DNA of 58,442 nucleotides from Chloroflexota bacterium (GTDB taxonomy: Bacteria; Chloroflexota; Limnocylindria; Limnocylindrales; CSP1-4). Location: assembly GCA_021802585.1 (NCBI GenBank), contig JAJZRQ010000010.1:1-58442 (forward strand), in the 5' to 3' direction. Below are positions 43,020 through 53,278 of this stretch, one piece after another (within the stretch, counting starts at the first letter, position 1; each line of letters opens with the position of its first letter). The position numbers and the translations under genes are program-made. The notes below the pieces were generated by a model. It was not told the origin of the DNA. It saw only the letters and a program-made list of their open reading frames with translations, and did not search any database.

Positions 43020-43454
43020 CTACTTCTTCTGGCCGGGCAGCTGAGCCGTGGCCTTCGCCCCGTACTTCGAGCGGCCCTGCTTGCGGTCGCGGACGCCGGC
43101 GGTGTCGAGCGTCCCGCGGATGATGTGGTACTTCACCGACGGCAGGTCCTTGACCCGCCCGCCGCGGACGAGGACGACCGAGTGCTCCTGGAGGTTGTGG
43201 CCGATCCCGGGGATGTAGGCCGTGACCTCCATCTGGTTCGAGAGGCGGACGCGGGCGATCTTCCGGAGCGCCGAGTTCGGCTTCTTCGGCGTCATCGTGC
43301 GCACCTGCAGGCAGACGCCGCGCTTCTGGGGGGCGCCCGGAATCGGGGTCTGGCGCTGGTCGAGGCTGTTCCAGATCCTGCGCATCGCCGGGGCCTTGAC
43401 CTTCGCGATCTTCGGCTTCCGGCCGTGGCGCACGAGCTGGCTGATCGTCGGCAC
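43020..43454 (-). CDS. rpsL: 30S ribosomal protein S12
   Basis: 144 residues. [23 protein letters not shown], then [19 protein letters not shown] and [26 protein letters not shown]. The two lysines where streptomycin-resistance mutations arise (PKKPNS and RVKDLP) are both wild type. Start is GTG 43454; an AGGAAGG lies rather far (about 11-15 nt) upstream. First gene of the str cluster, behind the promoter at 43589-43618. Confidence 0.96.
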
Positions 43455-43588
43455 GGAGACGCTGTTCCTTCCTGGTCCTGCTGGGCGTTGGCCTCGCCCA
43501 CCCGCGGGCGGCTCGGCCGTTGGACCCCGTCGCCGCTGGCGCGGGGCGCACGCGCCCACGGCCGGCCGGTCGGGGCACGCAAGCGCGG

Positions 43589-43618
43589 AGTGTACCAGCG
43601 GGCCTCGGAGCGTGTCAA
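43589..43618 (-). promoter_or_regulatory. Sigma-70-type promoter for the str cluster
   Basis: TTGACA (43618-43613), 18-bp spacer, TACACT (43594-43589) on the minus strand, between rpoC and rpsL. The perfect -35 and the good -10 make this one of the clearest promoters in the window. The leader to rpsL would be about 128 nt; it is GC-rich and no known leader element was recognised. Confidence 0.75.
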
Positions 43619-43627
43619 AGGCTCCGA
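43605..43627. promoter_or_regulatory. Inverted repeat enclosing the rpsL -35 box
   Basis: A perfect 7-bp inverted repeat, TCGGAGC (43605-43611) and GCTCCGA (43621-43627), has a 9-nt centre containing the TTGACA box. In RNA it forms a hairpin directly after rpoC; in DNA it could be an operator. It may serve as a weak rpoC terminator, a regulator site, or both. Confidence 0.45.
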
Positions 43628-43642
43628 CGCCCGCCGGCTGTG

Positions 43643-48157
<4,515 letters not shown>

Positions 48158-52910: not shown

Positions 52911-53278
52911 GCAACCCTCTCGTCGTCGCGCGCTGCCGGCGCGCCCGGTGGACCCGCAGGGCGGGGCCCCTGCCAGACGGTGCTCCCTCGCGTCTCGCAG
53001 GTTCCGCGCGGATCCGCCCCGGGGAGGGCGTTCGCTCGTGGTCCTGCCTCGGCGTGCCCGCCGTCGTCCCCGGGCCCGCTCGCGCGGGCGCCGGTCCGGT
53101 CCGGCGGATCAAGCCCCGGCCGTGCCGCCGGCCGGTTGGGCCCGGGCGGCGCGGCCCGCGGGCGCAGGCTGTCTGCGGCGGTCCGTCTTCGATCTCGTGC
53201 GGCGCGCCGGGCGGCGGGCCGCGCTGCGGGATGGTAGCCGATCGCCGCCCGGCGCGCGCCGGGCGGGACGGCCGTCGG
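52911..53278. other. 368-bp rplA-rplJ spacer, no gene seen
   Basis: This is the longest non-coding gap in the window. No start-Shine-Dalgarno pair leading to a plausible protein was found in either direction, and open frames crossing it are composition-driven. It contains a 22-bp palindrome next to rplA and several GC-rich arms. A TACCAT -10-like hexamer occurs near 53230 without a -35. The L10(L12)4 autoregulatory leader is expected here from other bacteria but its kink-turn motif could not be identified by eye. Confidence 0.6.
53245..53266. terminator. 22-bp perfect palindrome after rplA
   Basis: CCGCCCGGCGC followed by its exact reverse complement gives 11 paired bases per strand; as RNA it folds with a small loop into a very stable stem 12 bp past the rplA stop. 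No T-run follows. It may act as a terminator or attenuator between rplKA and rplJL. Confidence 0.45.

Follow-up and report, generated by a model that had tools for sequence, protein, structure and literature searches.

A terminator-like hairpin past rpoC overlies a candidate str promoter in a Chloroflexota genome

The rpoC–rpsL junction

The window, by which we mean the whole 58,442-nucleotide stretch of Chloroflexota DNA that was analysed, carries on its minus strand rpoB, rpoC, rpsL, rpsG, fusA and tuf, in that order in its list of open reading frames. Pfam matches to S12, S7 and EF-G identified rpsL, rpsG and fusA, and Pfam also identified rpoC; rpoB and tuf were recognized by eye in the translations. 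The gene for the RNA polymerase beta' subunit, rpoC (43643–48157, minus strand), encodes five RNA_pol_Rpb1 domains and ends in a TGA codon at 43645-43643. The str operon opens with rpsL (ribosomal protein S12; 43020–43454, minus strand), whose GTG start codon is at 43454-43452; this codon and the rpoC stop were read directly from the sequence. The source genome comprises 2.65 Mb in 141 contigs, encodes Rho and has a GC content of 75% (measured over 405 kb, the window plus 347 kb). A purine-rich Shine-Dalgarno sequence and a recurring GCGTCTCC lie immediately 5' of the rpsL start (43454-43475, minus strand), and in several relatives the two could pair with each other (GGAG..CTCC).

A promoter scan placed a -35 box, TTGACA, at 43613–43618 and a -10 box, TACACT, at 43589–43594, both on the minus strand. 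The boxes are 18 nt apart, TG precedes the -10 box, and 801 bases contained no second site resembling a promoter (mean over shuffles 0.0). The pair has the form of a sigma-70-type promoter, in which the two hexamers lie 16-18 nt apart, with 10 of 12 positions matching at a spacing of 18. The str leader and initially transcribed region would then occupy 43455–43588 (minus strand), with a predicted start. The initial bases of this region are strongly conserved as TCGTGGC in the family of the source genome (f1), at 1.35-1.86 bits per column (52 sequences). Within f1, the bases just past the -10 box (CTCCGC..TTCGTGGCC; 43570-43588, minus strand) are conserved nearly as well as the boxes. Variants of the initial transcribed bases elsewhere in the class read TTCGGTGTCCC in family f5 and TTCGGCTGTC or TTCGGCCTGTC in family f4.

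Upstream regions of relatives

At the level of the order, 85 of 126 genomes gave rpsL matches, and at the level of the class 111 of 151 did so; 115 upstream regions were read, with some hits located at contig ends left out (for example G120, G047 and G137). A loose finder detected a -35/-10 pair in 111 of the 115, the exceptions being G017, G096, G147 and G151, and removal of near-identical regions reduced the 111 to 102. The finder demands TTGAC or TTGTC together with TA...T, so the near-fixed box columns are partly a product of selection. Besides f1, the sample contains two more distant families, f4 and f5, and a group of five sequences, f2, that is too small to be informative; the f4 boxes are weaker (TTGACC and TAAACT). 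Most family-level counts below refer to 63 f1 sequences, from which five with weak promoters were excluded (G013, G022, G095, G098 and G108). One of the 63, G050, is a pattern hit without an rpsL start. It was removed when the main tests were repeated with 62 sequences, and is still included in the arm-swap profile, the column information, the first shuffle test and the classing of stems.

The -35 box is conserved in f1 and the -10 box recurs in relatives. The pattern TTGACAC-N14-TGNTANNCTNC was found in 48 of 107 family genomes (reversed control, 0), as a single copy in 47 of the 48 and in three copies in G053. Two identical str-like promoters in that genome lie near contig ends (G053:C242:16-47, the first, in L130, and G053:C585:95-126), and a str-like promoter in G050 (G050:C6:2155-2186; L127, L205) leads into initial transcribed bases that differ. 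G053 and G050 belong to the same genus, and a position of these copies ahead of rpsL is putative at most. Two further sites of the source genome come close to the promoter pattern, as judged by eye; a second promoter-like match there reads TTTGACCC-N17-TACACT (G000:C58:15875-15905, L041), likewise inspected by eye.

A hairpin encloses the -35 box

A preliminary description of this DNA had reported a perfect 7-bp inverted repeat whose 9-nt centre contains TTGACA, and this repeat is present at 43605-43627. The observation was confirmed and proved understated, as the repeat is the inner portion of a larger one with 17-nt arms at 43595-43611 and 43621-43637 and 9 nt between them. Fifteen of the 17 positions form Watson–Crick pairs, and the remaining two are a G-U pair (on the rpoC/str strand) and a G-G mismatch. 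Read along the minus strand, the gap between rpoC and rpsL has the layout CCGGCGGGCGTCGGAGC-CTTTGACAC-GCTCCGAGGCCCGCTGG, followed directly by TACACT. The left (5') arm, CCGGCGGGCGTCGGAGC (43621–43637), begins 5 nt past the rpoC stop codon; the 9-nt loop, CTTTGACAC (43612–43620), contains the -35 box; and the right (3') arm, GCTCCGAGGCCCGCTGG (43595–43611), covers 17 nt of the 18-nt promoter spacer, including the TG of the extended -10 element, so that the -10 box adjoins the 3' end of the hairpin.

Folded as RNA in isolation, the hairpin reaches -34.7 kcal/mol. A 91-nt region containing it folds to -48.8 kcal/mol, with a z score of -3.4 against dinucleotide shuffles, 1 of 200 of which did equally well. 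In having a stable, GC-rich stem-loop past the last codon of a transcription unit, the element resembles an intrinsic terminator. The U-tract that such terminators carry right behind the stem is absent, the tail here being TACACTCCGCG, and a scan of the locus found no standard terminator with a T-run. We also considered a known structured RNA and rejected this candidate after a search of 501 bases around the locus with Rfam covariance models returned no match up to an E value of 1.

Pairing persists in part of the family while the left arm varies

Sequence conservation in f1 extends to the promoter and not to the left half of the repeat. Across 52 sequences, the information content is 0.14-0.38 bit in left-arm columns -19 to -4, 0.60 bit in column -3 and 0.80-1.11 bit in right-arm columns +14 to +18. 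We asked of each sequence how well its own two arms pair. When left arms were permuted among 68 f1 sequences, the native combination paired better than all 2,000 permutations (z -7.0), and a repeat with 62 sequences, from which one misplaced sequence and five with weak promoters had been dropped, gave z -7.2. When each of the 20 genera was represented by one sequence only, 20 random draws gave a median z of -3.7 (range -5.7 to -2.1) and a median p of 0.002 (worst 0.028). The same permutation revealed no excess of pairing in f4 (z 0.6) or f5 (z -0.8), with 14 sequences each; f2 gave z -0.3 on five sequences, too few to interpret.

Two further controls were less specific. When arms were swapped between genera around a sliding centre, the largest excess of native over swapped pairing fell at the -35 box (-15.1 versus -12.1 kcal/mol; 63 sequences) and was absent there in f4 and f5 taken together (-8.9 versus -9.8). 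The genus-level t at -35 was -2.05, and because centres at -64, -49, -46, +62 and +65 equalled or exceeded it, the swap profile is not decisive by itself. Shuffling the left flank left 16 of 63 f1 sequences at p<=0.02 at -35 (11 of 20 genera; 150 shuffles), or 15 with 1,000 shuffles, and ten other offsets gave 0-5 of 63. The corresponding counts at -35 in the other families were 1 of 5 (f2), 0 of 14 (f4) and 1 of 14 (f5). Repeating the test without G050 yielded 13 of 62 with 200 shuffles and 15 of 62 with 1,000 (10 genera), which corresponds to 9-10 genera overall. Twelve other offsets were included in the repeat, +20 and +30 being added only at that stage; ten gave 0-4, offset -50 gave 5 and offset +30 gave 7 of 62. 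At p<=0.05, offset +30 reached 16 of 62 against 19 of 62 at -35 (7 against 13 at p<=0.02). Offset +30 sets the spacer against the conserved initial transcribed bases, and swapped arms pair as well there as native ones (own -11.1, swapped -11.5), indicating that its signal stems from shared sequence and not from matched arms. Since this offset also scores, shuffles alone are an unspecific control: it weakens the shuffle test, and the one-per-genus permutation strengthens the case.

Individual relatives enclose the -35 box in stems with very different arms, as in G016 (13 of 13 positions paired), G101 (14 of 15), G008 (11 of 11) and G005 (10 of 10). Loops of twelve enclosing stems range from 7 to 21 nt, and arm sequences vary even inside a genus. 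In three aligned sequences from the genus of the source genome, two pairs had changed on both sides (A-U/G-C and A-U/C-G, G-U being the third pair type), and 88.9% of cells were paired, against at most 58.3% when the arms were slid; 66 of 500 shuffles matched this pair count, which makes the alignment an illustration and not a test. Mismatch types do not discriminate RNA from DNA in the enclosing stems. With equal scoring, 16 enclosing stems contained 5 G-T and 4 A-C; for the 30 upstream stems the counts were 16 and 6 (p 0.05). A second equal-scoring count of enclosing stems gave G-T to A-C as 9 to 6; a ratio of 9 to 1 arose with a scoring that favoured G-T and is biased. Complementarity persists above controls only in part of f1, where a significant enclosing stem was found in a minority of members (13-16 of 62-63).

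Stem position tends to follow the length of the gap

A strong stem between the rpoC stop codon and the -10 box was found in 39 of the 63 f1 members; the other 24 had none by the threshold used. Stems were classed by stem score. The minimum free energy of local windows is of little use for this purpose in GC-rich sequence, where the best fold often extended into the end of the rpoC coding region. The stem encloses the -35 box in 12 members from 8 genera (shuffles: mean 2.9, maximum 7; 60 runs) and lies entirely 5' of it in 27 members from 9 genera (shuffles: mean 9.9, maximum 17). Elsewhere, one of the five f2 sequences had an enclosing stem, and the 14 sequences each of f4 and f5 contained no enclosing stem and, respectively, 2 and 4 upstream stems. 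The distance from the stop codon to the -35 box had a median of 42.5 nt with enclosing stems (12 sequences) and 66 nt with upstream stems (24 measured; Mann–Whitney p 0.0003). Three members of the genus of the source genome, G002, G004 and G005, have an upstream and an enclosing stem that both score 8 or more. In these genomes the enclosing stem may be dispensable as a terminator, and a simple short-space reading does not by itself account for them. The left arm of the window shares GCCGGCGGGC with three or more members of the genus, and it is suggestive that the window stem could be a deletion product of the upstream stem of the genus, an origin we do not claim on an alignment that is ambiguous.

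These data bear on whether the stem has any function. GC-rich flanks might pair by chance, and the stem at the -35 box would then be an accident or the outcome of template switching in a quasi-palindrome, a process that can mimic paired changes and keep arms complementary without selection. The 75% GC content (405 kb), the 47 of 63 f1 members that miss p<=0.02, the good pairing of swapped arms (-12.1 kcal/mol) and the second offset that scores against shuffles are all in keeping with this view. Against it stand the excess over permuted arms, which holds even with one sequence per genus, the excess of stems over region shuffles, and the lack of a permutation excess in f4 and f5. On balance we regard a stem without function as unlikely.

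Similar hairpins at other gene ends of the genome

We surveyed 405 kb of the source genome (the window and 18 further stretches totalling 347 kb), with genes predicted by an ad hoc gene finder, for hairpins with at least 15 of 17 positions paired and a loop of 3-24 nt. Of 36 raw hits, 6 were runs of N, leaving 30 strong hairpins, 21 within predicted genes and 9 intergenic; 8 of the 9 intergenic ones sit close to a stop codon, at distances of -3 to 24 nt, whereas the 21 within genes weigh against a gene-end role. Restricting the loop to at most 12 nt left 13 hairpins, 6 in genes and 7 intergenic, with all 7 near a stop codon. The window hairpin alone among the 30 has TTGACA in its loop. Under a looser criterion of 12 paired positions in 13, hairpins occurred at 7 of 89 tandem gene ends followed by a gap of at least 100 nt, the rpoC end being one of the 7. 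They were found at 3 of 42 ends with gaps of 40-100 nt, at 1 of 146 with gaps below 40 nt and at 2 of the 71 ends that were convergent or of another kind, and their rate within genes was about 0.01 per 70 nt. The tails of the gene-end hairpins are poor in T, which accounts for 19 of their 116 bases. At L240:12539, L245:2867, L246:15100, L247:8565 and L253:7331, and at position 53201 of the window, very strong GC hairpins that lack a T-tail lie right past stop codons.

GC-rich hairpins lacking a U-tract thus seem to end some operons in this genome, and are likely its own style of gene end. With its strong, short-loop stem past a stop codon and T-poor tail, the rpoC hairpin belongs to this class.

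A probable gene-end hairpin over a promoter

We consider it probable that the element is a 3'-end hairpin of rpoBC, terminator-like and U-less, overlying a sigma-70-type str promoter whose -35 box lies in the loop. Three computed observations underlie this reading: the anatomy of the element, pairing above controls in part of the family, and similar post-stop hairpins in the genome. Where the space between stop codon and promoter is short, the stem would take the promoter spacer as its right arm and leave the fixed TTTGACAC in the loop. At the DNA level a sigma factor would read the boxes of a presumably active str promoter, and at the RNA level the rpoC transcript would fold at the same bases into a hairpin that may end or protect rpoC mRNA. 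An invariant, AT-containing box would fit poorly in a varying, GC-rich stem, which may be why it lies in the loop; a gene-end hairpin that is wanted where there is little space would be overlaid in such a way that the invariant box stays unpaired. The suggestion in the preliminary description that an RNA hairpin forms just past rpoC on DNA shared with the str promoter, as a candidate rpoC end, is supported by its position, by the kept pairing and by the similar gene-end hairpins.

The hairpin could instead be a processing site or a barrier to decay in a transcript that continues from rpoC into rpsL, without terminating it. The lack of a U-tract and the position directly 3' of the stop codon are consistent with such a role, as is the presence of a gene for Rho, with which transcript ends may be set otherwise. 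The strong conserved promoter directly after the hairpin argues for two units, and we judge a barrier within one transcript to be improbable, although it is compatible with a gene-end hairpin over the promoter and does not exclude it.

The preliminary description had also seen in the repeat the geometry of a repressor operator, for which a repressor or activator dimer would cover the -35 box and control str. The inner 7-bp dyad, which is perfect and has the -35 box at its centre, fits this proposal, but the comparison of arms with boxes (52 sequences, boxes partly selected) went against an operator at the sequence level, the arms being unconserved (0.14-0.38 bit, column -3 at 0.60) while the boxes are nearly fixed. 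Relatives lack conserved half-sites: left-arm columns are nearly free of information where a common protein would need a common half-site, arms differ among genomes even in one genus, and loops span 7-21 nt. We therefore rejected the operator, which we regard as very improbable. Least probable of all is a cruciform whose arms would extrude when the DNA is negatively supercoiled, so that the -35 box is exposed or hidden and str responds to supercoiling; the long GC arms, the -35 box in the loop and the lack of strand bias among mismatches of enclosing stems would suit it, but upstream-only stems in relatives do not, and cruciforms rich in GC extrude less readily than those rich in AT, as is generally known and as an excerpt of PMC3890552 also states.

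A bolder version of the gene-end hairpin is a fused terminator-promoter, which we consider a long shot. rpoBC would end at the hairpin, and the polymerase, stopped on the str promoter, would restart at once on str. Just as speculatively, RNA polymerase and ribosomal protein synthesis would be coupled by bases in common, and selection would act on pairing in the stem and on sigma recognition in the loop. It is offered as a bold reading only; its basis is single-molecule work with E. coli polymerase (excerpts of PMC6978380 and PMC11347151).

If the stem does end rpoC transcripts, one short sequence would serve an RNA fold and a promoter simultaneously. Such a dual-use stem would recur, each time with other arms, in roughly 8 to 11 of the 20 genera according to the criterion applied, and would offer a good test bed for polymerase restart at a promoter on the same bases as a terminator.

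Comparison with known systems

In the open-access literature we found no description of an rpoC/rpsL arrangement with a promoter inside a terminator-like hairpin, and this absence is itself unproven. The parts are known, and a gene-end hairpin over a promoter, as a variant of them, is the best account of the element. In other bacteria, hairpins past stop codons often lack a U-trail, according to excerpts of PMC8355165, and the U-less post-stop terminators described there resemble the rpoC hairpin in having a GC-rich stem within 80 nt of the stop codon, near an operon end. Unlike in intrinsic terminators, the 9-nt loop here holds the -35 box of the next promoter and no U-tract follows, making the hairpin terminator-like by its sequence only.

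The likeness to dyad operators over -35 boxes, as generally known, is an inverted repeat centred on the box; here, in contrast, the arms are unconserved, the loop is variable, and what is kept is pairing rather than half-sites. In general terms, and not with reference to named model promoters, the site is also like the str promoters of other bacteria in lying ahead of rpsL-rpsG-fusA-tuf, but it stands immediately behind rpoC with the rpoC hairpin overlaid.

Polymerase recycling offers the closest parallel to the bold reading. Excerpts of PMC6978380 report single-molecule assays in which E. coli polymerase released at a terminator restarts at a promoter, and those of PMC11347151 state that coupling of termination to reinitiation has no in vivo demonstration yet. 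Our locus is like these systems in having a transcript end beside a promoter of the same orientation that serves a functionally linked operon. Recycling has been considered over terminator–promoter distances of up to about 1000 bp (excerpts of PMC11347151), whereas at the rpoC–rpsL junction both signals would share the same bases.
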